Assembly (NCBI RefSeq): GCF_014202215.1
Contig: NZ_JACHGB010000003.1
Span: 372,001-436,000, forward strand
Length of the DNA stretch: 64,000 nucleotides
Direction: 5' to 3'
Origin: Quisquiliibacterium transsilvanicum
GTDB taxonomy: Bacteria > Pseudomonadota > Gammaproteobacteria > Burkholderiales > Burkholderiaceae_E
Both the position numbers and the translations under genes were made by a program. Positions 19,661 to 36,178 of this stretch are shown here, in pieces. The notes beneath the pieces are model-generated. The model was not told the DNA's origin. It saw nothing but the letters and a program-made list of their open reading frames with translations, and did not search any database. The first letter of the stretch is position 1. Each line of letters starts with the position of its first letter.

Positions 19661-22052
<2,392 letters not shown>

Positions 22053-22313
22053 TTACTGCAGCGGAACGATTTCCACGGTGTGACGGCGCAGCGCGCCCTT
22101 CACAGCGAACTTCACCTGGCCGTCGACCAGCGCGTAGAGCGTGTGGTCCTTGCCGCGGCCCACGTTGACGCCCTCATGGAACTTGGTGCCGCGCTGGCGA
22201 ACGATGATCGAACCCGCTGAGACGGTTTCGCCACCGTAGGCCTTGACGCCCAGCATCTTCGGCTGGGAATCGCGACCGTTGCGCGTAGAGCCGCCGCCTT
22301 TCTTCTGTGCCAT
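22053..22313 (-). CDS. rpmA: 50S ribosomal protein L27
   Basis: An 86-residue protein starting [19 protein letters not shown], the invariant N-terminal tail of L27 that reaches the peptidyl-transferase centre, followed by the family core [24 protein letters not shown]. Full length. The ATG at 22313 has AGGAGTAGATCACC ahead. It forms an operon with rplU, 13 nt upstream. Confidence 0.98.
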
Positions 22314-22326
22314 GGTGATCTACTCC

Positions 22327-22914
22327 TTAAGCGCGCTTGCCGGCGACGAGCTCGTCGGTAAGCTTCTTGAACGCATCCCAGTCGCCAGCGGCGGCCAGCC
22401 GGGCCTGCTCGGGCCAGGTGCCCGGATCGGCCAGGCCGAAACGCGAGCCAGCGGCGTGCAGCACTTCCTTCAGGCGTTCCACCGGCGTCTGCGCCAGCTG
22501 CGCGAAGGTGACGATGCCGGCCTTGGCGAAGACCTGACGGATCTTCGGACCGATGCCTTCGATCTTCTCGAGGTCGTCGGCGGCAACGGTGCTCTCGCCC
22601 AGCGCCGACGCGATCTTGCCGATGAAGAGCTCGGTGTAGTTCTGGCGGTGGCCCTGCTGCTTGCGATAGTGCTTGCGGCGGCGCATCTTGAAGATGCGGA
22701 TTTTGTCGTGCCGACCCTGGGAAACCACCGTTGCCGAAACCGTCGCACCTGCCACGAGCGGCGTGCCGATCGCGAGCTGATCGCCCGCGCCAACCGCCAG
22801 AACCTGGTCGATCACGATTTCAGCCCCGATGTCCGCCGGCATCTGTTCTACTTTGATCTTGTCGCCGGCAGCAACTTTGTACTGCTTGCCGCCGGTTTTT
22901 ATGACCGCGTACAT
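22327..22914 (-). CDS. rplU: 50S ribosomal protein L21 with C-terminal helix-hairpin-helix extension
   Basis: A 195-residue protein. Residues 1-103 are ordinary L21 ([18 protein letters not shown] ... [21 protein letters not shown]), which binds 23S rRNA. After about residue 103 a further 90 residues follow: a linker, then [20 protein letters not shown], a helix-hairpin-helix signature, and a region with [13 protein letters not shown]. Most betaproteobacterial L21 proteins end near residue 103, so this is nearly twice the usual size. Similar tails are known from memory on some Bacteroidetes L21 proteins. There is no stop or frameshift between the two parts. The ATG at 22914 has GAGG upstream. 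The tail's job is unknown; nucleic-acid binding is the natural guess. Confidence 0.96.
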
Positions 22915-23069
22915 GGGAACCTCTGATTGATGAAAAAACCGGACGAGAACGCCCCGCAAGGAAAATAGCGGAGGCGGAAAACCCGATATGGTACGACGGC
23001 TTCGCTGCCTTCGCAACACTCAGGATAATCCTGCCGAACGCCCGCCGTCGCCTCGTGCCGCCCCGAACG

Positions 23070-23075
23070 TATAAT
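23070..23075 (+). promoter_or_regulatory. Possible -10 element of ispB
   Basis: TATAAT on the plus strand, 54 nt ahead of the ispB start, in the 214-nt divergent gap with rplU. The -35 region is poor. Confidence 0.3.
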
Positions 23076-23128
23076 CCGGCGCTGCGGTCCCAGCCGGGGC
23101 CGCCCTGAACCGTCACCCAGCGACCGCC

Positions 23129-24121
23129 GTGGTCGCGCCGCCGACAAGCGCCTTGAAGCCCGCCGAAATGTTCCCGGTGCTCGCAGCCGACCTCGCCGAG
23201 GTCGACCGCGTGATCCGCTCGCGCCTGAGCTCCGAGGTGGCGCTGGTCAGCACCGTCGCCGACTACATCATCGCGGCGGGCGGCAAGCGGATGCGCCCCG
23301 TGCTGCTGCTGCTGGTGGCCCGCGCGCTGGGCTACGACGGGCGCACGCATCACCAGCTCGCGGCGGTGGTCGAGTTCATCCACACCGCAACGCTCCTGCA
23401 TGACGACGTCGTCGACGAGTCCGACCTGAGGCGCGGGCGCCAGACCGCCAACGCCGTCTTCGGCAACGCCGCCTCGGTGCTGGTGGGCGACTTCCTCTAC
23501 TCGCGCTCCTTCCAGATGATGGTGGAGGCCGACGACATGCGCGTGATGCAGGTGCTGGCCAACGCCACCAACGTCATCGCCGAGGGCGAGGTGCTGCAGC
23601 TGATGAACTGCAACGACCCCGACGTGGACGAAGAGCGCTACCTGCAGGTCATCCGCTACAAGACCGCCAAGCTGTTCGAGGCCGCGGCCCAGGTGGGCGC
23701 CATCCTGTGCAAGGCGCCCGCCGCAGTCGAAGAAGCCGCCGCCGAGTACGGCCGCCGGCTGGGCACCGCCTTCCAGCTGATCGACGACGTGCTCGACTAC
23801 TCCGGCATTACCAACGACATCGGCAAGAACGTGGGCGACGATCTGCGCGAGGGCAAACCCACGCTGCCGCTGCTGCACGCCATGGCCCAGGGCACCGCCG
23901 CCGAGCGCGCAATGATCCGCGAGGCGATCGCACAGGGCCACACCGAGCGCTTCGACGAAATCATGGCCGCGATCCACCGCACCGGCGCGCTGGAATACAC
24001 GCGCGAGCGCGCTCGGACCGAGGCCAAGGCCGCGGCCGACGCGGTCGCTGGCCTGGCCCCTTCCGCTTACCGCGAGGCTCTGCTATACTTTTCGACTTAC
24101 TCGATCGAGCGTGACCGCTAG
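23129..24121 (+). CDS. ispB: Polyprenyl (octaprenyl) diphosphate synthase
   Basis: A 330-residue trans-prenyltransferase that lengthens farnesyl diphosphate to the C40-type chain used for ubiquinone side chains. The first Asp-rich motif is LLHDDVVDESD and the second is QLIDDVLDYSG. GGKRMRPVLLLLVARALG binds the homoallylic diphosphate. The likely start is a GTG at 23129; an internal ATG at 23168 (MFPVLAADLAEVD) is a plausible alternative because it matches where many homologues start. Divergent from rplU, as is usual in Betaproteobacteria. The gene ends 100 nt before tRNA-Pro. The chain length of the product cannot be read with certainty. Confidence 0.95.
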   Translation: MVAPPTSALKPAEMFPVLAADLAEVDRVIRSRLSSEVALVSTVADYIIAAGGKRMRPVLLLLVARALGYDGRTHHQLAAVVEFIHTATLLHDDVVDESDLRRGRQTANAVFGNAASVLVGDFLYSRSFQMMVEADDMRVMQVLANATNVIAEGEVLQLMNCNDPDVDEERYLQVIRYKTAKLFEAAAQVGAILCKAPAAVEEAAAEYGRRLGTAFQLIDDVLDYSGITNDIGKNVGDDLREGKPTLPLLHAMAQGTAAERAMIREAIAQGHTERFDEIMAAIHRTGALEYTRERARTEAKAAADAVAGLAPSAYREALLYFSTYSIERDR

Positions 24122-24221
24122 GTAGCGCTACGGACCCGGGCGTTTCCCGACGCTGGCCCGGTTCCCGACAGATCGAAGCCGTCTTCAGTGTTCACCGGGT
24201 CACCGGGCGCAACGCAGGATT

Positions 24222-24298
24222 CGGGGTGTAGCTTAGCCTGGTAGAGCGCTACGTTCGGGACGTAGAGGCCGGAGGTTCGAATCCTCTCACCCCGACCA
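24222..24298 (+). tRNA. tRNA-Pro, anticodon CGG
   Basis: A 77-nt cloverleaf. The acceptor arm CGGGGTG pairs with CACCCCG, then discriminator A and an encoded CCA end. The D arm contains the GGTAGAGC stretch. The anticodon stem CTACG/CGTAG encloses TTCGGGA, giving anticodon CGG at 24256-24258. The T arm has the GGTTCGAATCC core. It reads the proline codon CCG. It lies just after ispB. The sequence 3' of it looks like accessory or degraded DNA. Confidence 0.97.
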
Positions 24299-24467
24299 AT
24301 CAAATCAAGCACTGGTGAACATGCCCGCAGGATGGCATGACGGCCAGTGTTCGCCACCGCACAGAACGACGAGTCATGCCGGCGTAAATTGAACGCGTCG
24401 ACTTGCGCATGCGTTCGGAGGTCGACTTGTCCTCGCATCCTTCAACGCAGCCTGGGAGATTCGCATC

Positions 24468-24542
24468 ATGAACAACATCGTCTGGCTGGTCGGGGCCGTG
24501 GTCATCGTCCTCTTCATCCTCGGGTTCCTCGGCCTGCGCTGA
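24468..24542 (+). CDS. 24-residue single-span membrane peptide
   Basis: ATG at 24468 with GGGAG 10 nt upstream, then MNNIVWLVGAVVIVLFILG FLGLR and a stop. It is almost wholly one hydrophobic helix with Asn at the front and Arg at the end. Peptides of this size and pattern recur as unnamed genes in Betaproteobacteria (from memory). It is probably an inner-membrane small protein, perhaps binding a larger partner. No function is assigned. Unlike the decayed sequence around it, it has a good ribosome site and an intact frame. Confidence 0.65.
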   Translation: MNNIVWLVGAVVIVLFILGFLGLR

Positions 24543-24769
24543 GCGGCTCACGGGCGGGCCAGCGCGTCAAGCGGAGGATGGCGGCCGATCGGGGCGCGTG
24601 CCGCGCGACATCCGCTTGCCCTACAGTATTCGGTCGCCGTGCCGATGGTTGCCGTTGTGGTTGCCGCCAGGGGCACCTTGGCTCACTCCGCCGTGCAGCT
24701 TGCACCGGCTCTTTGCCAGCGCCGGGCGAAGGCAAGACGCACCGCACCAGGAGGTGCGGCTAGACCGGC

Positions 24770-25089
24770 CTAACTGGCCGCGCCTGCGGCAGCACGCCGC
24801 CAGGCCTCCTCCAGACGCCTCCGACTCACCGCGCGGACCCGCTTCAGGCAGATCACCCGGGCCATCTCGACCACACCCGCTTCCAGCACCACGCCGCTTC
24901 CCTGCAACTCTGCGGCGAGGCCCGCAAGCTCTTCGATTGCGATGTCCTCCACTGCACGGACGGCATCGGCACGGCGTTCTGGCAATCGGCCAGATTGAGC
25001 TTGGCCGCCACGGTCGCCTCGACCCTGATATCGAGCTTTGCTGCCTGCTCGGCACTTGCGTCGGTGCTGCCGGATTGCGCGTCGTCCAT
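24770..25089 (-). pseudogene. Frameshifted N-terminal remnant resembling DUF4011/DUF3320 helicase
   Basis: ATG at 25089 with CCGGAGGGGAC ahead gives MDDAQSGSTDAS, then KLDIRVEATVAAKLNLADCQ NAVP, which resembles the N-terminus of large DUF4011/DUF3320 superfamily-1 helicases (family pattern: LNFADFQNAVPVLREL). The frame is lost near 24961-24966. After a shift of one base, the matching continuation VRAVEDIAIEELAGLAAELQG appears in the other frame and runs to a stop at 24770. The remaining thousand or more residues of such a helicase are absent. This reads as the decayed stub of an accessory gene. The family assignment is from memory of the pattern and needs a profile search. Confidence 0.5.
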
Positions 25090-25578
25090 GTCCCCTCCGG
25101 GGGCAATGCAGTGCATCGCCCTTTCCTTCAATTCCCAATGTCGGCTGTGCGGCATGCCCCTGATTCCGCAGCCACTACGAATGAGCTCGATACTGTCATA
25201 GCCCACGCCGCCGCCCTACCCAGAATTCCGCGTTTCTGGGCGTGGGCCGAATCAGTTACCCCTGTTCCGAGGTTCACGAGTTCGCTGCTGGAGTGCGAAG
25301 CGGCGCTTGAGGATTCCAGTCAAGGTCGACGGGAATCTCTCCGGCGCTGAGGCCACCAACGCCCTCCACCAAGACTCCCGGCAAGCCGTCCCCCAAGCCG
25401 CTGCATCGACCCCGATCCCACGCTCGAACGCAAGCTCAGGCCGGCGCGTGCCAGGCGCACAGTGCCGACCGGACCGTGTCCGGCGCTCGCGGCCGCGGGC
25501 GTCCCGGTGTAGCTTCGGCGGATCAGAATGCCGCGTTCCCAGCAAGGTCCGCCCCATGATCGACTGCTCCAGAATCCA
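25090..25578. other. Intergenic region with no supported gene
   Basis: Short open frames exist on both strands but none has a convincing ribosome site or recognisable domain. It separates the helicase remnant from the first adenylate-forming gene and may contain that gene's promoter, which I could not pick out. Confidence 0.5.
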
Positions 25579-27051
25579 ATGAATACCCTCGACGAGATGA
25601 TCGCGCTGCATGCCCGGGCGCGCCCGCAGGCGCCCGCCGTCATCTCCGCCCGCACGTCCCTGACGTATGCCGCCCTGGACGCTCTGGTCGGCCGCGCAGC
25701 GTCGATGCTGGCCCGGGCGGGCGTGACCGCCCGCGGCAGGATCGCCCTGAGCTTCGACGACGAAGTCCTCGAGCTGGTGCTGACGCTGGCGATCGCATCA
25801 TTGGGCGGACGGCTGGTTTCGCTGGCACGCGGCGCGCCGCTGCCGGTTCGCAGCGAAACCTGCAGGGCTGCCGGCGTGAGCGTGCTGCTCTGCGACAACC
25901 CGAAGCATCGGGTTGCCGGCGTGCCCACCGGCGTCGTGAGCCTCGAACAGCTCGGACTGCAGCCGGAAAATGGAGCCGCCGTGCTGGGCCGCGGGGAGGT
26001 CGCCGCCGATTTCATCCATGTAAGCAGTTCCGGCTCGACCGGCGCGCCCAAGCGATTCCACCTGAGCCAGGAACTCCTCCTGCGCAGACTGTGGCAACGG
26101 GTGTCGTTCTTCGGACTGGGCCCGAGCGACAGGTTCCTCAGGGTCTCCTCGTTCTCCTACATCGGTTCGAAAGTGCGGCACCTGAGCGCGCTGCTCGCCG
26201 GCGCCGCCATCGTGTTCCCGGAAGACCCCTTGCATGGCGTATGGGAGACCTGTGTCGATCACCAGGTGACCTTCCTGTCGGCTGTAGTGGTGCAGGTGGA
26301 AGCGCTGCTCAGGCAGCAGCGCCAGTCGGAGACCCTGCCCCCGCTGAACCTGAGGGTGCTCGAGATCTCGGCTTCGAGCGTCAGCGACGACCTGCGCCGT
26401 CGGGCGCGGCAGGCGCTCAGCCCGAACGTCTACGTCACCTACAGCACGAACGAATCGGGGGCGATCGCGATCGCCACCCCGGACGAGGTGCGCGACCGGC
26501 CGGGCACGGTGGGCAGGCCACTGGACGGCGTCGAGGTCCGTGTCGTCGATCGCGACACCGGCGCCCCGCTGACGGGCAGGCCGGGGCTGATCTGCGTGAA
26601 GTCGGGCCACGCCATCGACGCCTACTGGAACGATGCCGTGAATACCGCCAGGTACTTCAGGAACGGATACTTCCTGCCCGGCGACCTCGGTGTGCTGGGG
26701 GAGTCCGGAGAACTGACCTGGCTCGGCCGCGCGGACGACATGATGATCATGCACGGCATCAACATCCACCCTTCGGCGATCACCGAGTGCCTGCTGCTCC
26801 ACCCGTCGGTCACCGACGCTGCCGCCTTCCCGGTCCGGCACAGCGTGCACGGTGACATTCCGGTCTGCGCGGTGTCGGTGCGCGAGAGCCCACCCGCCTC
26901 TGAAGCGACGCTGCTGAAGTACGCTGGCGCGCGACTCGGTGCTGCGGGCCCGCGCCGGATCGTCATCCTGGACGCCATCCCGCGCAACGAACTTGGCAAG
27001 GTGGACCGGATGCGGCTCATCGACATGGTGAAGACGAGGGTGGAGCGTTGA
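25579..27051 (+). CDS. Stand-alone class I adenylate-forming enzyme (acyl/aryl-CoA ligase-like)
   Basis: A 490-residue ANL-superfamily enzyme. The phosphate loop reads SSSGSTGAPKR, the A5-like segment YSTNESGAIAIA, A7 PGDLGVLG, A8 GRADDMMIMHGINIHPSAI and A10 PRNELGKVDRM with the catalytic lysine. These enzymes activate a carboxylic acid as an acyl-AMP and pass it to CoA, a carrier protein or an amine. There is no carrier-protein domain attached. It is convergent with, and related in sequence to, the adenylation half of the fusion gene that ends 7 nt away (both have PGTVGRP and GINIHP). No CoA-binding loop is clearly recognised, so CoA ligase activity is not assured. Confidence 0.85.
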   Translation: MNTLDEMIALHARARPQAPAVISARTSLTYAALDALVGRAASMLARAGVTARGRIALSFDDEVLELVLTLAIASLGGRLVSLARGAPLPVRSETCRAAGVSVLLCDNPKHRVAGVPTGVVSLEQLGLQPENGAAVLGRGEVAADFIHVSSSGSTGAPKRFHLSQELLLRRLWQRVSFFGLGPSDRFLRVSSFSYIGSKVRHLSALLAGAAIVFPEDPLHGVWETCVDHQVTFLSAVVVQVEALLRQQRQSETLPPLNLRVLEISASSVSDDLRRRARQALSPNVYVTYSTNESGAIAIATPDEVRDRPGTVGRPLDGVEVRVVDRDTGAPLTGRPGLICVKSGHAIDAYWNDAVNTARYFRNGYFLPGDLGVLGESGELTWLGRADDMMIMHGINIHPSAITECLLLHPSVTDAAAFPVRHSVHGDIPVCAVSVRESPPASEATLLKYAGARLGAAGPRRIVILDAIPRNELGKVDRMRLIDMVKTRVER

Positions 27052-27058
27052 GCGGCCG

Positions 27059-30000
27059 CTACTTCTGCAGGCGGTCAGCGCCAGTATCGGATGCGCACGC
27101 CTGACTGCGCACCGCGAGAATCGCATCGACATCCGGGCGGCACGCCAGCGCGAGCATCCGCGCCTCCAGTCCGCTTGTCTCCAGCTGGAGCGGGGCTCCG
27201 CCCGCGTCGAGCGTGACGACGGCCGAGGTCACGAAGCAACGCCGGCCCGCCGCGCGCAGCTCCGCGAACCGTGCTCTCGCCCTCGCAATCGCATCCGCCC
27301 CGTCGAAGTACTCGACCGGAATCCGTCCGTCGCCATCGACGAAGGCCTTCAGGAAACCCCCGATGTGGGCCTTCGATATCTCCCCGCCACCGAACAGGGG
27401 TGCGATGTTCACTTCGTTGACGATCGCGCCGTTGCGATGCCAGGGCACCGCGATGTCTGGCGTGATGATGTCGATTCCGGCAACGTCCAGGCCGAACAGC
27501 GCGGCCCCGCGCAGCGCGATCGCCAGGTTGTCGGGATGGACACGATCGCTGACTGCCTCGTCGACCCCGCCCCAGCGGCTTGATTCGATCCGGCGCAAGG
27601 GCACCAGCGTGCCGTCGGCCGGAATCGAGGTCGGCGCGAACCCCTCTCGTGCCATCGCCGCGAGCGCGAGATCGTCGATCGGCCGGATTTCGGTGCGTTG
27701 CCAGGGCGGCAGCGACCGCTGGCGGGCAAGCTCCGCGTCGACGAGCTCGGCGACGTTGCTGCGGCCATCGCCCCTGACCGACATCGGCAGCCGCTTCACC
27801 GCGTACAGCAGCCGCCCGCCGGCGACGAACAGGCGATGACAGACACCGGGCACCTGGCGCTCCACGATCGCGCGCCGGTTCCGGGCGAGCGCTCTGGCCT
27901 CGTCGAATGCAGCCAGCAGCGAGGCCTCGTCGGCGACGTCGACCGTCACGCCCTCGCCGCGGTCCCGGTCCGATGGCTTCACGACGAGCGGATAACCCAG
28001 TTCGCGCGCCGCGCGCAGGGCCCCCTCGCGTTCCTGCACGGCCGCGTGCACCGGGGCGGGCAAGCCCGCCATGCGCAGCAGGCCCGCCGCGACCATCTTG
28101 TCCTGGGAAAGCCGCGCGCCGATCGCCGAGTCCCGGTCGGTGATGCTCCGGTCCATCCGGCGAGCCCTGCTGCCCCATCCGAGCTGGTAGACCCCGGCCC
28201 CGAGGTGGATGTACGGAATGCCCAGCTCATGCGCCACGCGCAGGACCGGGATGGTGGAAGCGCCGGCGGGGACGAGGCGGCGCAGCTGCGCCACGACGCC
28301 CGATGAGATTGCCTGCAGCAGGGACTCGCGCGCTTCCGCGCCGAGCGGGCCGGCGCAGGCCTGGTTGCAGAACTGGAGGGCAGACTGGAGTGCGATGCGC
28401 TGGCACTCCAACGGCACGTTCTCCACCACCGGGAAAGCCAGTGCTGCAGCACAGGCGCGCGGCCGCTCGCCGGAGCACTCCAGGGAGACCACGCGAGGTG
28501 GGTCGAACACCGGCAGACGCCCCAGTTCCAGGAACAGCCGTGCGACTCGCGCGACCCGATCGGCGAATGCCGCCGCGAGCCCGGTCTCGTCCAGCGCACG
28601 CGCGTCCGCGTCGCCTGGGCCCGGCTCGATCGACAGCACCTCGGAGATCGACCGGGACAGCCGCTCGATGCCCTCGGCCCTGGGGACCGCGAAGCGCGGC
28701 CGAAGCAAGGCGAAGCGCTGCAGCATACCTTGGGGGCCGTCCGGCCGCGCGACGTCGAGGCCGACCGGCCGCGCGGCGTCGACGGCGACCGACTGCCGCG
28801 CCCCTTCGTCGTCCGCGTTCCGCATGCGAGGCGCCAGCGCCGAGCGGATCTTGACGATCAGCGCGTCGCGGACCAGCTTGCCCGTCTCCGTGCGCGGGAT
28901 CGCGTCGACCACGACGATCTGGCGCGGGCGCTGCGGCCCGAGCCGCTCGGCCGCGAAACGCGCCAGGTCCTCGCGGGGCGCCTCGCGGCCCGCCTGGAAC
29001 GCGATCACGCAGGCCGGCAAGGCCTGCCCCTCGGCAACCCGGTACGGCACACAGACGACGTCCGCGACGCCGGGGTAGCCGGACATCGCGTTCTCGACTT
29101 CGGCCGGATGGATGTTGATGCCGTTGTAGACGATCATGTCGTCGGCGCGCCCGCAGTAAATCAGCTGCCCGTCCGGCGTCAGGCGACCCAGGTCGTGGGT
29201 CGTGAACCAGCCATCGCGGAACGCCGCGGCGTTCGCTTCTCGATCGTCGATGTAGGCCTCGACCATTCCGGGGCTGCGCATCCATATCTGGCCGACCTCG
29301 CCGGCCGCGACCGGCGCGCCGTCCGGGCCCGTCAGGCGGAGGTCGACGCCCTCGCAAGGGCGGCCCACCGTCCCCGGCGTGGACGCGATGTCCGCCGGAC
29401 GGGCGATCGTGATCGGACCGCAATCGTTGGCACCCAGCCGGATGAACAGGTTCTGCGTGAGCTGCCGCATCGCCCGGCGCCTGAGCGTCTCGGTGACCGT
29501 CGCCGAACCGATGCGGAGCACGCGCAGGAAACCGAGGACGTCGCGAGCGGAGTCGGGGAGCCCGCGCAGCATGTGCTGGGCGTGGAACACGGAGGCGTGG
29601 AGAACCGAGACGCGGGCCGACCGCAGTTCGTCCACGGTCCTGTTCGACAAGGGCTCGAGGACCACGAACGCCGCCCCCAGCCAGATCGCCTCGAACAGGC
29701 GCTGGTTGCACATCGCAAAGTCCAGCGGCGACAGGCAGGCCACGCGGTCGTGCTCGGTCATGCCGATCATCCCGGCGAAGATCGACGCGCGGGCAATCAG
29801 CGCCTCGTGGCCCACCGGGATCAGCTTCTTCCTGCCGGTCGATCCGGAACCCACGATGATCTGGCAGGGCGCAGGGGGCGCGGGGTCCTCGAGCGCGCGA
29901 TCGACCGGATCGCCCGGTTCACGCAGCCCCCAGGCGCAGTCGACCAGCCCACCGCGAAACCCCGGCAAGCGGTTGGCCTGTCGGTCCACGAGAATGAAAT

Positions 30001-30304
30001 CCAGGGCGAGCCTGCGGGCGAGGTCTTCACGGTAGACCACCGGGTCGCCGGGCGGCAGGCTGACGCAGGAAGCCCCCAGCCGGCACACCGCCAGCATCGC
30101 GAGCGCGTAGCCGAGCTGGTCGACGCAGGTCAGGCCGACGCGCATACCCGGCCTGACGCCGGCGGCGTGGATCCCGGCGGCAGCGGTCCAGACCGCCGCG
30201 TCGACCTGAGCGTAGGTGTAGTCCCCGCCCCTGTGCGCGAGGGCCACTGCGGCAGGAAAGTGGCGCGCGTGCTCCGCCAGCCTGGTGGTGAAGTTTCTCG
30301 TCAT
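27059..30304 (-). CDS. Fusion of adenylate-forming domain with cyanophycin-synthetase-like ATP-grasp domain
   Basis: A 1081-residue protein. Residues 1-490 are an adenylation domain: P-loop VGSGSTGRKK (151-160), GANDCGPITIA (291-301), THDLG (369-373), GRADDMIVYNGINIHPAEVE (385-404) and A10 PRTETGKLVRD with Lys476. After a linker, about 560-715 resembles the region ahead of the ATP-grasp in cyanophycin synthetase (IPVLRVAHELGIPYIHLGAG, QLGWGSRARRMDRS). Residues 715-985 are the ATP-grasp itself, with KPSDRDRGEGV (776-786) and the metal-binding GAIVNEVNIAPLF (959-971). The Mur-ligase domain of CphA is missing and no carrier domain is seen. One protein thus holds two different ATP-dependent carboxylate activators, suggesting ribosome-independent peptide or amide synthesis. 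The product is unknown. Confidence 0.82.
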   Translation of the reverse strand: MTRNFTTRLAEHARHFPAAVALAHRGGDYTYAQVDAAVWTAAAGIHAAGVRPGMRVGLTCVDQLGYALAMLAVCRLGASCVSLPPGDPVVYREDLARRLALDFILVDRQANRLPGFRGGLVDCAWGLREPGDPVDRALEDPAPPAPCQIIVGSGSTGRKKLIPVGHEALIARASIFAGMIGMTEHDRVACLSPLDFAMCNQRLFEAIWLGAAFVVLEPLSNRTVDELRSARVSVLHASVFHAQHMLRGLPDSARDVLGFLRVLRIGSATVTETLRRRAMRQLTQNLFIRLGANDCGPITIARPADIASTPGTVGRPCEGVDLRLTGPDGAPVAAGEVGQIWMRSPGMVEAYIDDREANAAAFRDGWFTTHDLGRLTPDGQLIYCGRADDMIVYNGINIHPAEVENAMSGYPGVADVVCVPYRVAEGQALPACVIAFQAGREAPREDLARFAAERLGPQRPRQIVVVDAIPRTETGKLVRDALIVKIRSALAPRMRNADDEGARQSVAVDAARPVGLDVARPDGPQGMLQRFALLRPRFAVPRAEGIERLSRSISEVLSIEPGPGDADARALDETGLAAAFADRVARVARLFLELGRLPVFDPPRVVSLECSGERPRACAAALAFPVVENVPLECQRIALQSALQFCNQACAGPLGAEARESLLQAISSGVVAQLRRLVPAGASTIPVLRVAHELGIPYIHLGAGVYQLGWGSRARRMDRSITDRDSAIGARLSQDKMVAAGLLRMAGLPAPVHAAVQEREGALRAARELGYPLVVKPSDRDRGEGVTVDVADEASLLAAFDEARALARNRRAIVERQVPGVCHRLFVAGGRLLYAVKRLPMSVRGDGRSNVAELVDAELARQRSLPPWQRTEIRPIDDLALAAMAREGFAPTSIPADGTLVPLRRIESSRWGGVDEAVSDRVHPDNLAIALRGAALFGLDVAGIDIITPDIAVPWHRNGAIVNEVNIAPLFGGGEISKAHIGGFLKAFVDGDGRIPVEYFDGADAIARARARFAELRAAGRRCFVTSAVVTLDAGGAPLQLETSGLEARMLALACRPDVDAILAVRSQACASDTGADRLQK

Positions 30305-30436
30305 GGATGGAAAGCGCCCCGAAGCCGCGCCGAGGCACGCCCGCAGAGACGCGCGGCCCGGAAATGCGCGACAGTGCCGGGCGATTCTATGGCGTTTCGA
30401 TCCATCCCGAGGATTGCCGGGGGTCGCGGCCCGCGT

Positions 30437-31465
30437 TCAGCCCTCCTCCTCCGGCGAGCTGGCGTCGCGCTTCTTCGCCCCGAACGGATAGGCACTGCCC
30501 GTCTCGCCCGGCCGCGCCGGGATGCGCAGCGACAGCAGCATGGTCACCGCCAGCGTGGTCACTGTGAAGCCCAGCGACCAGACGATCGGGATCTTGTAGA
30601 TGTCGACCAGCAGCATCTTGGTGCCGATGAACACCAGCACCACGGCCAGCCCGTAGGGCAGCAGGTGGAAGCGCTCGTGCATCCCGGCCAGCAGGAAGTA
30701 CATCGCGCGCAGGCCCAGGATGGCGAACACGTTGGAGGTGAGCACGATGAAGGAATCGGTGGTGATCGCGAAGATCGCCGGGATCGAGTCGACCGCGAAC
30801 ACCACGTCGACGATGCCGATCAGCAGGATCACCACCAGCAGCGGCGTGGCCATTCGCACGCCGTTCACGGTCGTGAAGAAGCGCTCACCGTCGTAGCCCG
30901 GGGCGATCTTCACGCGGCGCTTGACCCACTGCAGCGCGGGGTTCGCGTCGAGGTCGGGCTCCTGGCCCGCGGCCCACCACATCTTCACGCCGGTGAAGAC
31001 CAGGAAGACGCCGAACAGGTACATCACCCAGTGGAAGCTGGCGATCAGCCAGGCGCCGACCAGGATCATCACCGCGCGCAGGATCAGCGCGCCGATGATG
31101 CCGATCATCAGCACCCGCCGCTGGAACTCCGCGGGCACCGCGAAGTAGGTGAACAGCATCAGGAACACGAAGATGTTGTCGACCGCCAGCGCCTTCTCCA
31201 CCAGGTAGCCGGTGACGAACTCGAGCGCCTTGGCGTCGGCCAGTTCGCGCGCCGCGGCGTCACCCGAGGCGCCGCCCAGGTACCACCAGAGCCAGCCGAC
31301 GAACACGAAGGAGACCGCCACCCAGACCAGCGACCACATGCCCGCTTCGCGCAGCGACACGGCCTGGGCGCCGCGGCGGTTGAGAGCGACGAAATCGACG
31401 ACGAGGGCGACCAGGACGAAGGCCGCGAAAAACGACCACAGCAGGGGCGTGCCGATGGAGAGCAT
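30437..31465 (-). CDS. alx: TerC/Alx-family integral membrane protein
   Basis: A 342-residue inner-membrane protein with about nine hydrophobic spans. Family signatures are EKALAVDNIFVFLMLF and DVVFAVDSIPAIFAIT, each with a conserved Asp in the membrane, and GLRAMYFLLAGM. In E. coli, Alx (and related MntP/TerC proteins) is linked to manganese export and alkaline stress. The length and architecture match Alx rather than the shorter TerC. It starts with MLSIGTPLLW at 31465 and is preceded by a yybP-ykoY riboswitch, supporting a manganese role. Confidence 0.93.
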   Translation of the reverse strand: MLSIGTPLLWSFFAAFVLVALVVDFVALNRRGAQAVSLREAGMWSLVWVAVSFVFVGWLWWYLGGASGDAAARELADAKALEFVTGYLVEKALAVDNIFVFLMLFTYFAVPAEFQRRVLMIGIIGALILRAVMILVGAWLIASFHWVMYLFGVFLVFTGVKMWWAAGQEPDLDANPALQWVKRRVKIAPGYDGERFFTTVNGVRMATPLLVVILLIGIVDVVFAVDSIPAIFAITTDSFIVLTSNVFAILGLRAMYFLLAGMHERFHLLPYGLAVVLVFIGTKMLLVDIYKIPIVWSLGFTVTTLAVTMLLSLRIPARPGETGSAYPFGAKKRDASSPEEEG

Positions 31466-31511
31466 CGGGGAAGACCTTTCTCACCAGCCTGGCAAGGGCA
31501 GGACGACGGGG

Positions 31512-31675
31512 TTTGTCGAAGGTCCTCGCCGGTCTGGCCGACCGGATCGCGCATGGCTGCGCGCCGGTTCACGACACCGGGCATGCGATCGAGTGCCAGA
31601 CCGACCGCTGCCGTAATGACGATGTCGCGGCGCGGAAATCCTGAAGATCCGCGCCGGCTACTCCCCGATGGAGGC
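31512..31675 (-). promoter_or_regulatory. yybP-ykoY manganese riboswitch ahead of alx
   Basis: Read on the minus strand the leader contains the hallmark GGGGAGUAG element near its 5' end (around 31661-31670). It then has the GACATCGTCATTACGG stretch, a paired middle arm, GTGTCGTGAACCGG, and the 3' block GGCGAGGACCTTCGAC. These are the conserved loops of the yybP-ykoY (Mn2+-sensing) class, the same element that controls alx in E. coli. It ends about 46 nt ahead of the alx ATG. The leader runs from about 31675, with its outer stem boundary uncertain by several bases. Confidence 0.88.
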
Positions 31676-31796
31676 GAAGCGGATTTGAGCAGCAGTCTTG
31701 ACGCCGGTCAACAAAACCCTGTGAATGGCAAGGACAATTGCGGTCCACAGGGCCCTCGCGGCGCCCTTACCAGAGACGTGCATACCGGAGCTGCCC

Positions 31797-32837
31797 ATGC
31801 CGAATCAGAACCACTTCGCAGGCACCGTCAACGACGACTGGCTCGCGCAGCACCGCGAGGACGCGCTCGAGCCCGGCCTGCCGATCGTCGATCCGCACCA
31901 TCACCTGTGGGTCACGAAAAGCGGCAGCTACCTGTTCGCGGACTTACTCGCCGACCTGGACTGCGGACACGACGTGCGCGCCACGGTCTACGCTGAGTGC
32001 GGCTCGATGTACCGGGCCGACGGCCCCGAGGAATGGCGCTCGCTGGGCGAAACCGAGTTCGTCACAGGCGTGGCGGCGATGAGCGCAAGCGGGCTGTTCG
32101 GCCGCACGCGGGCCTGCGCCGCGATGTTCGGCAACGTCGACATGCGGCTCGGCGAGCGTGCGCGGCCGATCCTGGAAGCGCACATCGCCGCCAGCGGCCA
32201 CCGCTTCCGCGGCGTCCGCTTCTCCACCGCCTGGGACGCGGACGAGCGGGTGCACCGTGTGGTGCCCGAGCAGGCGCTGCTCGCCGACCCGCGGGTGCGC
32301 CGCGGCCTGGCCTGCCTCGCGCCGCTGGGCCTGTCGCTGGACGCCTGGGTCTACCACCCGCAGCTTCCCCAGCTGGCGGCGGTCGCCGACGCCTTTCCCG
32401 AGCTGACGATCATCCTCAACCACATCGGCGCGCCGATCCTGGGCGGCCCCTACGCCGGCCGCCGCGACGAGGTGCTGGCGAGCTGGCGGGCGGGGCTGTC
32501 GGAACTCGCCAGGCGGCCCAACGTGTTTCTGAAGGTCGGCGCGATCCCGATCCGCCTGCCCGGCGCCGCCCGCAGCGAGGCCTCGGGGCCGCCCTCGTCC
32601 GAGACGGTGGCGGGCGCCTGGCAGCCCTTCGTCGAGACCTGCGTCGAGCTGTTCGGCGCGCAGCGCTGCATGTTCGAAAGCAACTTCCCGGTGCAGAAGC
32701 GCTGGTGCAGCTACGGGGTGGTGTGGAACGCCTTCAAGCGGGTTGCGGCCGGCGCCTCCGCCGACGAGAAGCGCGCGCTGTTCGCGGGCGCCGCGATCCG
32801 GGCCTACCGGCTGCCGGCAGCGCTGATCGGCGGCTGA
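31797..32837 (+). CDS. Amidohydrolase-family (amidohydro_2) lactonase/decarboxylase-like enzyme
   Basis: A 346-residue TIM-barrel metal-dependent hydrolase of the amidohydrolase 2 type. IVDPHHHLW (about residue 30) carries the two metal-binding histidines, ILNHIGAPI supplies a later histidine, and MFESNFPVQK ends the barrel. The closest named members are 2-pyrone-4,6-dicarboxylate hydrolase, L-fuconolactonase and 4-sulfomuconolactonase. ATG 31797 has GGAG 6 nt upstream; the upstream ATG at 31725 lacks one. It is followed 67 nt later by an alpha/beta hydrolase on the same strand, possibly one unit. Confidence 0.86.
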   Translation: MPNQNHFAGTVNDDWLAQHREDALEPGLPIVDPHHHLWVTKSGSYLFADLLADLDCGHDVRATVYAECGSMYRADGPEEWRSLGETEFVTGVAAMSASGLFGRTRACAAMFGNVDMRLGERARPILEAHIAASGHRFRGVRFSTAWDADERVHRVVPEQALLADPRVRRGLACLAPLGLSLDAWVYHPQLPQLAAVADAFPELTIILNHIGAPILGGPYAGRRDEVLASWRAGLSELARRPNVFLKVGAIPIRLPGAARSEASGPPSSETVAGAWQPFVETCVELFGAQRCMFESNFPVQKRWCSYGVVWNAFKRVAAGASADEKRALFAGAAIRAYRLPAALIGG

Positions 32838-32904
32838 CGAGACTGAGGCGGCTGGCGCGGCGGCTCCGTTATGATCCGCCCGCCCCGACCACGCCGCCCA
32901 CGCG

Positions 32905-33789
32905 ATGCCCCTGATCGTCTTCTCCCACGCCAACAGCTTCCCTGCGGCCACCTACGCGATGCTGTTCCGCTCGCTGCGGGCGCGCGGCTTCACGGTCAAG
33001 GCCATCGACAAGTTCGGCCACGACCCGGCCTACCCGGTGACCAGCAACTGGCCCTTCCTGGTGCAGCAGCTGGCTGACTTCGCCGCCCCGGAGATCGAGG
33101 CGCATGGCGGCCCCGCCTATCTGGTCGGACACTCGCTGGGCGGCTTCCTCAGTCTGATGTGCGCAGCGCGCCACCCCCGGCTTGGCGGCAAGGGGGCGCA
33201 GGGCGTGCTGCTGCTGGACTCGCCGATCCTCGGCGGCTGGAAGGCGCAAACGCTGGCGCTGATGAAGCGGGCCCAGGTCGTTGGCTCGGTCTCGCCGGGC
33301 CGCGTCAGCCGCAAGCGGCGCAACCAGTGGCCGGACGCCGAGGCGGTGCTGGAGCACTTCCGCCACAAGCGGCCCTTCATGCGCTGGCACCCGCAGATGC
33401 TGCTGGACTACGTCGCTCACTGCACCCGCGACGAGCCCGCTCCGGACGGCGGCACCCGGCGCATGCTGGACTTCGACCGCGACGTCGAGACCGCGATCTA
33501 CAACACCCTGCCGCACAACCTCGACCGGCTGCTGCGCCGGCACCCGCTGCAGTGCCCGGTGGGCTTCATCGGCGGCACCCGCTCGGTGGAAATGAAGCAG
33601 GTGGGCATGACGATGACCCGCCAGGTGGTCGGCCGCACCCACCCGGAGCGGATGCGCATGGTCGAGGGCTCGCACTTGTTCCCGATGGAGCGGCCACAGG
33701 AGACTGCGGCTGCGATCGAGGAGATGCTGCAGGGGCTCCGGAATGCCGGGGGCCAGGCCCCGGCACCGGTGAGGAAGACCGCCGCCTGA
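32905..33789 (+). CDS. Alpha/beta-fold hydrolase
   Basis: A 294-residue hydrolase. The nucleophile elbow is VGHSLGG (Ser about residue 75) and the oxyanion region is VFSHANSFPAATY near the N-terminus, as in epoxide-hydrolase/esterase relatives. The catalytic histidine is likely in EGSHLFPME near residue 255. No signal peptide, so cytoplasmic. It lies after the amidohydrolase gene and converges with the acyl-CoA dehydrogenase genes. Substrate unknown. Confidence 0.85.
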   Translation: MPLIVFSHANSFPAATYAMLFRSLRARGFTVKAIDKFGHDPAYPVTSNWPFLVQQLADFAAPEIEAHGGPAYLVGHSLGGFLSLMCAARHPRLGGKGAQGVLLLDSPILGGWKAQTLALMKRAQVVGSVSPGRVSRKRRNQWPDAEAVLEHFRHKRPFMRWHPQMLLDYVAHCTRDEPAPDGGTRRMLDFDRDVETAIYNTLPHNLDRLLRRHPLQCPVGFIGGTRSVEMKQVGMTMTRQVVGRTHPERMRMVEGSHLFPMERPQETAAAIEEMLQGLRNAGGQAPAPVRKTAA

Positions 33790-33855
33790 CCAGGCGGCGG
33801 CACGCGCCGGGGTCATGCGCCAGCGGCCCGCGGCCGCTGCGCCCGACGCCGACCC

Positions 33856-34983
33856 TCAACCAAACAAGAGCTCCCCCAGCCGCGCCCGGTGATGCGCGCC
33901 GTCGCCATAGACGCCGTGCAGGAACAGCGCCCGGCGCAGGAAAATCTGCGCGTCGCAGTCCCAGGTGAAGCCGAAACCGCCGTGGAACTGCACCGCGCGG
34001 TCGCCCGCCCAGGCGAAGGTCTCGCCGGACTCCAGCTTGGCCATTCTCAGCGCCACCTCGGCATCCTCACCCGCGGCCAGCAGCGTGGCCGCGTGGTACA
34101 GGTGCGAGCGCGAGCGCTCCAGGCCGATCAGGATCTCCGCGCAGGTGTGCTTGAGCGACTGGTAGCTGCCGATCTTGCGGCCGAAGGCGGTGCGCGTGTT
34201 CAGGTAGTCGACCATCAGGTCCAGCGCGCCCGCGATGCCGCCTGCGGCCTCGGCCGAGGCCAGCAGCAGTGCGGCGTCGCTCAGCGCGCGCAGCGCCGCC
34301 TGCGCGTGCGCGCCCGCGATCAGCCTTTCCTGCGGCACGCGCATGCCGTCGAGCGTCAGCGTGTACGCGCGCCGGGTCTCGTCGATCGCGGCGTCGCGCC
34401 GCAGCGCGCCCACGGGAAGTTCGCCGCGCTCGAGGACCACCAGCGCCGGCGCGCCGTCGAGCGACACGGTCGCCATCAGCAGCTCGGCGACGTCCGCGTC
34501 GCAGACCAGCGTCTTGGTGCCGGCCAGCGCCAGCGCGCCGCCCTCGCGCACCGCGCTGGCCTGGGCATGCGCCAGCGTCCAGTCGCCCTCGGGCTCCAGT
34601 ACCGCGGTCGTGGCGATCGCGCCTGCGGCCACGCGGGCCAGCCAGTCCGCCTGCTGCGCCTCGCTGCCGCCGGCCAGCGCCGCGTGCACGAAGATCTGCG
34701 TGCTGCCGAACGGGGTGGCGAACAGCCTGCGCCCCATCGGCTCGGCGATGGTGGCCGCTTCGGCAAGCGACAGCCCGCTGCCGCCGAAGCGCTCGGGCAC
34801 CGCGATGCCAGACCAGCCCAGGGCGACCATCTCGTCCCATATGGCGCGCTCGAAGCCGTGCTCGGAGGTCATCTGCGCGCGCACCGATGTGATCGGCGCC
34901 TTGTCGCGGCAGAACGCGGTGGCCGCGTCCAGCAGCATCGCCTGCTCGTCGGTGAAGACGATTCGATTGGAGAGTCCGTGCAT
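33856..34983 (-). CDS. Acyl-CoA dehydrogenase, small-subunit-like
   Basis: A 375-residue FAD-dependent acyl-CoA dehydrogenase fold. Recognisable parts are the N-terminal helical region, the beta-barrel VPERFGGSGLSLAEA, the helix segment RTAFGRKIGSYQSLKH and the flavin-binding QFHGGFGFTWD. It starts 4 nt after the stop of the next acyl-CoA dehydrogenase gene. That layout, one of about 375 and one of 396 residues, resembles heteromeric pairs such as PimC/PimD (pimeloyl-CoA dehydrogenase) and steroid side-chain enzymes. The middle domain is less conserved than usual, consistent with a partner subunit. Confidence 0.88.
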   Translation of the reverse strand: MHGLSNRIVFTDEQAMLLDAATAFCRDKAPITSVRAQMTSEHGFERAIWDEMVALGWSGIAVPERFGGSGLSLAEAATIAEPMGRRLFATPFGSTQIFVHAALAGGSEAQQADWLARVAAGAIATTAVLEPEGDWTLAHAQASAVREGGALALAGTKTLVCDADVAELLMATVSLDGAPALVVLERGELPVGALRRDAAIDETRRAYTLTLDGMRVPQERLIAGAHAQAALRALSDAALLLASAEAAGGIAGALDLMVDYLNTRTAFGRKIGSYQSLKHTCAEILIGLERSRSHLYHAATLLAAGEDAEVALRMAKLESGETFAWAGDRAVQFHGGFGFTWDCDAQIFLRRALFLHGVYGDGAHHRARLGELLFG

Positions 34984-34987
34984 GGCG

Positions 34988-36178
34988 TCAGTCCTTCGGA
35001 AGGCCGAGCACGCGCTCGCCGATGATGTTGGCCTGGATCTGGCTGGTGCCGCCGCCGATGGTCGACGAGAAGGCGTTCAGGTAGGAGCGCTGCCAGAGGC
35101 CGCCGTCCACCGCCTGGGAGTCGCCGACGAAGCGCGCGGCATTGGCGCCCTGCAGCGACAGCGAGAACTGGAAGAGCCTGCGCCGATGCTCGGTGATGCG
35201 CAGCTTGTTCGACAGCGCGATGGCATCGGGACGCTCGCTGCACAGCGCGGGGATCTCCGAGCGCGCGCCGCAGAGCAGGTCGCCCTGCTCCTCGACCGCG
35301 AAGCGCACCAGGCTGTCGCGCACGAAGGGATCCTCGAGCGCGGGGCGCCCGTTGCGGCGCGATCTTCGCGCAAGCTCCACCACGTCGTCGAGCCCCACCG
35401 CCATCTTCGCCAGGCCGCCGGCCTGGCCGCCGGAGGCGCCGCGCTCGAAGGTCAGCGTCATCATCGCGATCTTCCAGCCCTCGCCCTCGCGGCCCATCAA
35501 GGTGTCGGCGGGAACGTGCGCATCGGTGAAGAAGGTCTGCGTGAAGCCGTATTCACCGGTGAGCTTGCGGATCGGCTGGGTCTCGATGCCGGGCGTGCGC
35601 ATCGGGATCAGGAAATAGGACAGGCCGGCGTAACGCTTCTCCTTGGGATTGGTGCGCGCCAGCAGGATCATGTACTTCGCGTAGCTGCCCAGGCTGGTCC
35701 AGATCTTCGAGCCGTTGATCACATACTCGTCACCCTTGCGCTCGGCGCGCGTCTGGCTGTTCGCCAGGTCGGAGCCCTGGTCGGGCTCCGAGAAGCCCTG
35801 GCACCAGATGTCGTCGGCGCTGAGGATGCCCGGGATGAAACGCTTCTTCTGCTCCTCGGTGCCGATCGCCAGGATCAGCGGCCCCGCCCAGTTCAGGCCG
35901 ATGGTGTTCGGCACGAAGGGCACCTGCTCGCTGGCCATCTCCTCGTCGGCGATGTCCTGGTAGACCTGCGGCCGGCCGCCGCCGCCGTACTGCTTCGGCC
36001 AGGCCATGCCGAGATAGCCGGCCTCGTAGACCTTGCGCTGCCAGTCGCGCAGGTACTCGAACTGCTGGTCGGTGCCCACCTCCATGAAGGTCTCGGGCAG
36101 CAGGAAATCGGGCTGGGGAGGCCGGTTGGCGCGCAGCCAGTTCCGGACCTCGAGGCGGAATTGTTCGAGTTCGCTCAT
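34988..36178 (-). CDS. Acyl-CoA dehydrogenase, large-subunit-like
   Basis: A 396-residue acyl-CoA dehydrogenase. Conserved blocks include GCD-like CQGFSEPDQGSDLAN, GSKIWTSLGSYAKYMILLART (flavin and substrate side) and the C-terminal GGGTSQIQANIIGERVLGLP. It catalyses alpha,beta-desaturation of an acyl-CoA with FAD, passing electrons to an electron-transfer flavoprotein. ATG 36178 fits the family start MSELEQFRLEVRNWLR. It lies 13 nt after the enoyl-CoA hydratase gene and 4 nt before the small-subunit-like gene, so the three form one operon that would carry out successive beta-oxidation steps. Confidence 0.92.
   Translation of the reverse strand: MSELEQFRLEVRNWLRANRPPQPDFLLPETFMEVGTDQQFEYLRDWQRKVYEAGYLGMAWPKQYGGGGRPQVYQDIADEEMASEQVPFVPNTIGLNWAGPLILAIGTEEQKKRFIPGILSADDIWCQGFSEPDQGSDLANSQTRAERKGDEYVINGSKIWTSLGSYAKYMILLARTNPKEKRYAGLSYFLIPMRTPGIETQPIRKLTGEYGFTQTFFTDAHVPADTLMGREGEGWKIAMMTLTFERGASGGQAGGLAKMAVGLDDVVELARRSRRNGRPALEDPFVRDSLVRFAVEEQGDLLCGARSEIPALCSERPDAIALSNKLRITEHRRRLFQFSLSLQGANAARFVGDSQAVDGGLWQRSYLNAFSSTIGGGTSQIQANIIGERVLGLPKD

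Follow-up and report, generated by a model that had tools for sequence, protein, structure and literature searches.

What does a protein do in which an adenylate-forming (AL) domain is joined to the ATP-grasp part of a cyanophycin synthetase (CphA)? The question is raised by a pair of genes in a 64,000-nucleotide stretch of the Quisquiliibacterium transsilvanicum genome (contig NZ_JACHGB010000003.1, positions 372,001 to 436,000, forward strand), hereafter called the window. As described in a first-pass annotation made from the letters alone, the genes for a fusion protein of 1081 residues (P0001) and an enzyme of 490 residues (P0002) are convergent, with their 3' ends 7 bases apart; both reading frames were found, and that of P0001 is open without an inner stop in its own genome. 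The sequence evidence lends good support to the prediction that P0001 is a carrier-free amide ligase and not a cyanophycin synthetase, and its ATP-grasp half belongs to what is apparently an undescribed, CphA-derived clade of ligases. The locus contains the following features.

27059..30304, minus strand: P0001, AL-ATP-grasp fusion gene, 1081 aa, ATG start (open reading frame [ORF], Pfam, NCBIfam and PDB matches)
25579..27051, plus strand: P0002, stand-alone AL enzyme, 490 aa, of the same AL clade as the AL domain of P0001 (ORF, Pfam, alignment)
27052..27058, no strand: gap of 7 bases between the P0001 and P0002 stop codons (ORF map)

An alternative in-frame ATG at 25528 would extend P0002 to 507 aa. 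As a 1088-aa ORF runs antisense across P0001 (28730-31996, plus strand), the length of an ORF is no evidence of a gene in this GC-rich DNA; that P0001 and P0002 are real genes is supported by their domain matches and by codon-position GC (0.74/0.52/0.88 for P0001).

The division of P0001 into an AL domain and a CphA-like N-terminal and ATP-grasp part, as originally proposed, was borne out by Pfam, NCBIfam and PDB comparisons, and four segments can be distinguished.

28859..30304, minus strand: AL domain (AMP-binding and AMP-binding_C), P0001 residues 1-482 (Pfam, alignment)
28670..28858, minus strand: linker, P0001 residues 483-545, with low model confidence at approximately 492-528 (structure model)
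27335..28669, minus strand: CphA-type N-terminal part and ATP-grasp domain, P0001 residues 546-990 (NCBIfam, alignment, PDB)
27062..27328, minus strand: Mur-ligase remnant without P-loop, P0001 residues 993-1081 (alignment, hhalign, structure model)

Pfam analysis of P0001 identified AMP-binding (residues 10-351, E-value: 2.2e-38), AMP-binding_C (residues 402-476) and two weak ATP-grasp-type matches starting at residue 735, while P0002 contains AMP-binding and AMP-binding_C only. With both domains above their Pfam cut-offs and an A10-type lysine, P0001 and P0002 each belong to the adenylate-forming superfamily. The relationship noted between the two adenylation enzymes is real: their AL domains are 32% identical and the motifs are intact in both. 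The AL domain of P0001 carries the A3 motif SGSTG, D371, R386 and a C-terminal Lys476, a column that is lysine in 32 of 34 AL sequences and a gap in two. A candidate A4-type Asp, present in 23 of the 34 sequences and in P0001 but not P0002, may correspond to that of amino-acid adenylating domains. As the annotation had it, neither protein contains a carrier (PP-binding) domain among Pfam families at E ≤ 0.001, and the carrier domain that would mark a nonribosomal peptide synthetase is therefore missing from both.

The C-terminal half of P0001 is a relative of CphA. Residues 626-969 score 229 bits on the NCBIfam cyanophycin synthetase model, whose cut-off is 877, and a second such comparison gave 201 bits against 850. 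The best PDB relatives of this half are cyanophycin synthetases (7wac, 5.2e-45), with a CphA1 structure scoring higher (157.6 bits) than the CphA2 structure 8fxh (126 bits). An AlphaFold model of P0001 (mean pLDDT 75.7, pTM 0.45) is adequate for folds but too low in quality for domain contacts. When it was used in a Foldseek search, AL structures ranked first and CphA1 ranked 47; MenE, aryl-acid adenylating enzymes and McbA were among the top matches of the AL model.

Residue numbers and roles were taken from TeCphA1, as given in the available part of PMC9427784, and applied to an alignment of 89 clade proteins. The catalytic residues of the ATP-grasp domain are in place in P0001, where K736, K776, R824, D945 and E964 correspond to K220, K261, R309, D431 and E450. 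Across the clade, K261 and D431 are each kept in 89/89 proteins, K220 and E450 in 88/89 (one gap in each case) and R309 in 86/89 (histidine in the other three). In the aspartate pocket, R323 is kept in 89/89 (R838 in P0001). The N394 position, by contrast, is serine in 76 proteins, threonine in 11, alanine in one and asparagine in one; the R458 position is arginine in 0/89 and glycine in 77; the H267 position is arginine in 84/89; and the S396 position is alanine, glutamate, glutamine or another residue in at least 86/89. P0001 itself has S908 at N394, G972 at R458 and R910 at S396, a position whose adjoining space is among the aspartate-recognizing features of CphA1. Weaker homologues served as an outgroup of 11 sequences, with N394 kept in 10 (and a gap in one), R458 in 2/11 and H267 in 0/11. 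Because this outgroup retains N394 yet mostly lacks R458 and H267, the N394 change alone is specific to the clade. As the aspartate-holding residues are replaced, P0001 should not be a cyanophycin synthetase. Judged by these residues, the clade would still activate a carboxylate, perhaps that of a peptide-like chain as in CphA1, and join to it an amine other than aspartate.

P0001 was initially described as being without the Mur-ligase domain. This holds for the P-loop, in which GTNGKTT of CphA reads GADAIAR, but a decayed remnant of approximately 90 residues persists. P0001 residues 993-1081 are in register with the first part of the Mur domain in the cyanophycin-synthetase-type proteins of its own genome, and hhalign comparison of 23 clade C-termini with four CphA Mur domains aligned columns 1-93 of the former with columns 1-92 of the latter (probability 88.6, pairwise E 2.7e-6). 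The structure model shows strands and helices in this region. P0001 is like CphA1 in its homologous N-terminal and ATP-grasp part, with residues for ATP, magnesium and the acyl-phosphate kept, and unlike it in falling below the NCBIfam cut-off, in lacking the Mur P-loop, in having its aspartate-recognizing residues replaced and in being fused to an AL domain.

With this architecture, P0001 would be an amide-forming enzyme with two active sites. The AL domain would convert an acid to an acyl-adenylate, and the ATP-grasp domain would convert a carboxylate to an acyl-phosphate that is then joined to an amine; no carrier protein would be needed and the Mur reaction of cyanophycin synthetase would not be possible. 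The clade as a whole would have retained what is needed to activate a (peptide-like) carboxylate and altered the pocket that chose aspartate. Carrier-free amide formation had already been put forward as the likely chemistry, and it is supported by the domains, the residues and the homology to CphA, from which we infer both the reaction and the order of its steps.

The statement that no named pathway has this layout can no longer be upheld, as amides are known to be assembled by the two types of enzyme found fused in P0001, adenylate-forming and ATP-grasp. According to the available sections of PMC12568646, dapdiamide is assembled without a carrier by DdaG (adenylate-forming) and DdaF (ATP-grasp), and E-64 by an Fe(II)/α-ketoglutarate (aKG) oxygenase, the ATP-grasp enzyme Cp1B and the amide bond synthetase Cp1D. 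The available sections of PMC11427300 describe the adenylate-forming CysC and CysF and the ATP-grasp enzyme CysD for cystargolide, and belactosin as likewise carrier-free. DdaG and DdaF use ATP to form one amide via an adenylate and one via an acyl-phosphate, with neither bond involving a carrier-bound step, as we propose for the window locus, but they are separate proteins rather than a single chain, and DdaF is likened to P0001 by enzyme class and not by sequence. The cystargolide set of two adenylate-forming enzymes and one ATP-grasp enzyme is the same as that of the window locus; it differs in that the proteins are separate, the product is a beta-lactone and no surface-protein context appears in those sections of PMC11427300, and CysD is again likened by enzyme class. 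The E-64 enzymes resemble the wider partner set of the clade described below (oxygenase, ATP-grasp enzyme and adenylate-forming synthetase), but the system is fungal, its oxygenase acts on fumarate, and in the clade a hydroxylase and an AL gene share only 2/84 loci. Another ATP-grasp group is the subject of PMC4431377, to go by its available part. The libraries and literature searched yielded no close homologue whose product is known. Among the listed papers of an open-licence subset of PubMed Central, none was found that connects this clade with surface proteins or with AL fusions.

At the family level, 4/74 genomes match at E ≤ 1e-60, all in the genus of the window. At the level of the order, 35/399 genomes match the ATP-grasp half at E ≤ 1e-50, of which seven are set apart at E ≤ 1e-80; the next match is at 6.4e-55, where the ORFs are of cyanophycin-synthetase length. 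A scan of named genomes yielded 80 loci, from Betaproteobacteria, other Pseudomonadota and Campylobacterota among others. After seven repeats of already fetched stretches were dropped, 87 sources were kept, and the clade set used here comprises 84 loci (individual loci and genomes are designated by L and G numbers) with 89 ATP-grasp proteins above 250 bits. AL-ATP-grasp fusions of 1067-1433 aa are found at 17 of these loci; named isolates account for three (Malikia granosa P1, Malikia spinosa 83 and Roseicyclus mahoneyensis DSM 16097). A single origin of the fusion is not supported: a quick tree requires eight changes between the fused and single states, at least six of which are forced by starred branches. 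The nearest relative of the window ATP-grasp half is the unfused L024 (74% identity), but as the tree is a quick one with one support measure, fusion and fission are inseparable, in this pair as elsewhere. P0002 is up to 39% identical to the AL halves of fusions elsewhere, and the same is true of the AL domain of P0001. The convergent pair is not the conserved unit, since only the window among the 17 fusion loci has a second, separate clade AL gene within its flanks.

Three variant arrangements were also observed. At L026:14081-18722, in a genome of the same genus that lacks a clade ATP-grasp match at E ≤ 1e-60, three clade AL genes lie in tandem. A second, more divergent ATP-grasp (approximately 100-220 bits) is located beside the clade ATP-grasp at L164:12785-14761, L122, L101 and L104, and at L161:8592-10414 the clade ATP-grasp is present as two ORFs next to an HExxH gene.

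The surroundings of these relatives include peptide hydroxylases and surface proteins, a context that the first-pass annotation did not foresee. Recurrent neighbours in flanks of up to 10 kb were identified by all-against-all comparison and named by Pfam or NCBIfam. Besides AL enzymes, the partner types are aKG-HExxH-type peptide beta-hydroxylases (TIGR04267), 2-oxoglutarate (2OG)-Fe(II) oxygenases, proteins of the ornithine-cyclodeaminase family (OCD) and a BKACE-GNAT fusion. At least one partner is present at 50/84 loci (AL at 23, a peptide beta-hydroxylase or 2OG oxygenase at 18, OCD at five and BKACE at six), a count that is descriptive because the partner models derive from the same loci. 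The AL partner is fused or at most 2.5 kb away at all 23. HExxH genes occur at 12/84 loci, every one within 644 bp of the ligase gene, and all four proteins tested score 77-113 bits on TIGR04267 (cut-off 40). The 2OG oxygenase is found at 6/84 loci, BKACE at 6/84 (all within 310 bp) and OCD genes at 6/84 (five within 46 bp). Two kinds of partner coincide at 2/84 loci, in both cases an AL enzyme and a hydroxylase with two ATP-grasp genes; by arithmetic, 4.9 such loci would be expected by chance.

aKG-HExxH enzymes hydroxylate ribosomal peptides, according to the available part of PMC12636437. The TIGR04267 proteins at the 12 loci are direct neighbours of the ligase; clusters for ribosomally synthesized and post-translationally modified peptides also carry short precursor peptides, and the likeness here lies in the hydroxylase genes. 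As an independent check, TIGR04267 was found in 12/399 genomes of the order (11 above the cut-off); it is present in three of the seven clade genomes of the order, always adjoining the ligase, and the other four are without it. HExxH genes with no nearby clade ATP-grasp were seen at L153 (G298) and L154 (G171); judged by eye, one is amid glycan-type genes and the other beside PilY1/minor-pilin-like genes.

Eight further loci were fetched from samples of the class and the phylum (369 and 398 genomes). All five with profile scores above 440 bits, a split drawn after the scores were seen, have a partner, and a secreted-type ORF (defined below) lies within 1.1 kb at two of them. The new loci include G620 (2OG oxygenase and autotransporter), G704 (OCD and a 2258-aa secreted-type ORF), G804 (HExxH), G493 (HExxH, with the ligase split over two ORFs) and G1122 (AL fusion); G804 (248 bits) and G493 (205 + 120 bits) are under the 250-bit line of the 84 loci.

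Secreted-type ORFs were defined as those of at least 400 aa that are rich in G, N, S and T and poor in K, R, C and P. With the window omitted, such an ORF lies within 500 bp of the ligase at 11/83 loci. Random genes drawn from the same loci gave 2.0 on average and 8 at most, and 0/5000 draws reached 11; within 2.5 kb, the count is 17 loci against a random mean of 5.6 and maximum of 12. Doubtful ORFs make up part of the control, and near-duplicates (L082/L083, for example) are counted twice. Pfam analysis of 10 of the 11 close neighbours found autotransporter, RTX, two-partner-secretion (TPS) or outer-membrane families in all except L107, with the L066 neighbour judged through its near-identical relative L068. 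The surface-protein neighbours identified by Pfam are as follows.

Autotransporters: L112, L115, L118, L144, L148, L068
RTX proteins: L009, L064, L082, L083, L084, L120
Others: TPS protein (L097), FadL-type outer membrane protein (L127), DUF4214 (L137), GLUG (L096)

The giant proteins L107:1-9699 and L095:3-2948 have no Pfam match, so a surface role for them follows from composition; type I secretion genes are located near L107 by our own models. Four fusions lie 2.4-3.0 kb from FimT-like and PilY1 genes (Pfam on L089), one fusion adjoins SapC (L110), and a surface-protein neighbour is present at 24/84 loci in total. Genes of other kinds were also seen near clade ATP-grasp genes: a glycosyltransferase family 25 gene directly after one (L140:2161-2973, Pfam), a sulfotransferase gene (L076:13961-14623, Pfam) and sulfate-activation-like genes of the cysD/cysN/cysQ type (L088, L094, L096 and L148, by eye). 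A sulfotransferase reading of the L062 neighbour was discarded, as this protein has no Pfam match.

Apart from the fusion, the genome that carries the window encodes an ATP-grasp and AL pair whose genes are separate and overlap by 4 bases (C7), an ATP-grasp on its own (C5) and another that is more distantly related (C4); two genes of the cyanophycin-synthetase type (C7; L013) are also present. The C7 and C5 paralogues do show the links seen in other relatives. The C7 pair (L009) is 141 bp past a gene for a 2611-aa RTX-repeat protein (Pfam HemolysinCabind). After the pair come a glycosyltransferase-like gene, named from NCBIfam matches below the cut-off, and genes that Pfam assigns to outer membrane efflux, HlyD-type and ABC transporter proteins. 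The C5 ATP-grasp (L011) ends 1 bp from a TIGR04267 hydroxylase gene (112.9 bits, cut-off 40). A set of distant CphA-like ATP-grasp, phosphodiesterase-like and glycosyltransferase-like genes, named by eye, recurs at L012:9291-14346 and L063:12156-17174, and the phosphodiesterase-like cluster of these loci is present in L132 too.

As surface proteins and peptide hydroxylases often adjoin relatives of the ligase, a small amide group at the cell surface is a more probable product than a storage polymer. The explanation that we favour, tentatively and with somewhat less than even confidence, is that P0001 is a two-site amide ligase of a CphA-derived clade that works with one of several partner enzymes and has a part in surface decoration. 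The partner (AL enzyme, peptide beta-hydroxylase or 2OG oxygenase, OCD-type or BKACE-GNAT protein) would prepare or supply the substrate of the ligase, and the product would probably decorate secreted surface proteins or their glycans. This surface role is supported by the gene context of the relatives, not by the window locus, and we infer that P0001 shares it. A fuller version is possible but rather doubtful, namely an undescribed system in which a Mur-dead cyanophycin synthetase with interchangeable partners decorates surface proteins or glycans with amide-linked groups, P0001 being its single-chain version; the targets may be autotransporters, RTX and S-layer-like proteins, TPS proteins and type IV pilus loci, and the partner chemistry may be acyl-activating, peptide-hydroxylating or amine-making. 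Several points weigh against the favoured explanation. No surface-protein gene, hydroxylase, OCD or BKACE gene is within reach at the window locus, and both kinds of link, to an enzyme partner and to a surface neighbour, are missing at 29/84 loci, the nearest relative L024 being one of them. Of the new loci, the three with lower scores (G687, G474 and G934) have no enzyme partner by the models used, with ABC and HlyD-type matches further along at G934. Counts over the 84 loci are not independent, the loci being mutually related, and are partly circular, as the partner models were built from clusters beside the same ligases. The loss of R458 and H267 is not clade-specific, in 1/89 clade rows the GRIP motif is followed by GKT or GKS, and the OCD and BKACE partners suggest small-molecule chemistry more than protein modification.

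The OCD and BKACE-GNAT partners count in favour of the main rival, with which the favoured explanation has much of its evidence in common: a pathway to a free pseudo-peptide (acid-amino acid-amine) of the dapdiamide, cystargolide or E-64 kind, in which hydroxylases, OCD and BKACE make building blocks and the presence of surface genes nearby has a different cause (uptake, export or common regulation, for example). The same enzyme logic is published (available sections of PMC12568646 and PMC11427300), and the resemblance of the AL model to MenE, aryl-acid adenylating enzymes and McbA suits it as well; however, TIGR04267 is named for peptide beta-hydroxylases, the characterized ones acting on ribosomal peptides in the available part of PMC12636437, and surface proteins of several unrelated kinds are repeatedly found next to the ligase, more often than in the internal control. 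We regard such a pathway as possible, although on balance doubtful. It is unlikely that P0002 and the AL half are acyl-CoA ligases of housekeeping or catabolic metabolism that work independently of an adjoining ligase remnant. The genome has 70 AL-like matches at E ≤ 0.001 and the convergent pair is not conserved, but P0002 is as near to the AL halves of other fusions as the AL domain of P0001 is, the motifs of both domains are intact, and the fusion recurs at 17/84 loci. An ordinary divergent cyanophycin or poly-amino-acid synthetase of the CphA2 kind, fused by chance to an acyl-CoA ligase, would account for the CphA ancestry. In CphA2, the Mur half is inactive or reduced and there is a single ATP-grasp site, so that P0001 would resemble it in its one remaining CphA active site, and its homology to 8fxh is detectable. 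We know of no AL fusion for CphA2. N394 is replaced in 88/89 clade proteins and R458 in 89/89, the NCBIfam score is far below the cut-off, CphA1 is a better match than CphA2, separate full cyanophycin-synthetase-type genes are present in the genome (L013) and the fusion recurs; this explanation is very unlikely, and synthesis of cyanophycin or a CphA2-like polymer was rejected on residues and scores.

If the surface role is correct, an enzyme for a storage polymer would have been recruited on several occasions to decorate proteins of the cell surface, and bacteria would possess an amide-based modification distinct from the glycosylation and lipidation already known. Should the chemistry alone be correct, the clade would supply carrier-free amide ligases, in some cases joined in a single chain to their acid activator, whose choice of substrate differs from that of cyanophycin synthetase. 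Either way, the gene set could be tested in culturable strains, with Malikia, Vogesella and Roseicyclus among the loci.

Around P0001 and P0002, GC is 0.64-0.74 across 19-37 kb without a break, and composition therefore gives no support for recent transfer; a genomic island was rejected as an explanation. In a plasmid collection, 2871 records match the P0001 protein and none spans 80% of the query, with the matches confined to the AL half among the 20 listed. Approximately 1.3 kb past a tRNA-Pro gene (24222-24298), at 24299-25578, contains no convincing gene. An Rfam search of 22000-36000 at the gathering threshold found no manganese riboswitch, a tRNA being the sole match, before the TerC/Alx-family gene (30437-31465, minus strand; NCBIfam, 393 bits) that is located upstream of P0001 on the same strand.

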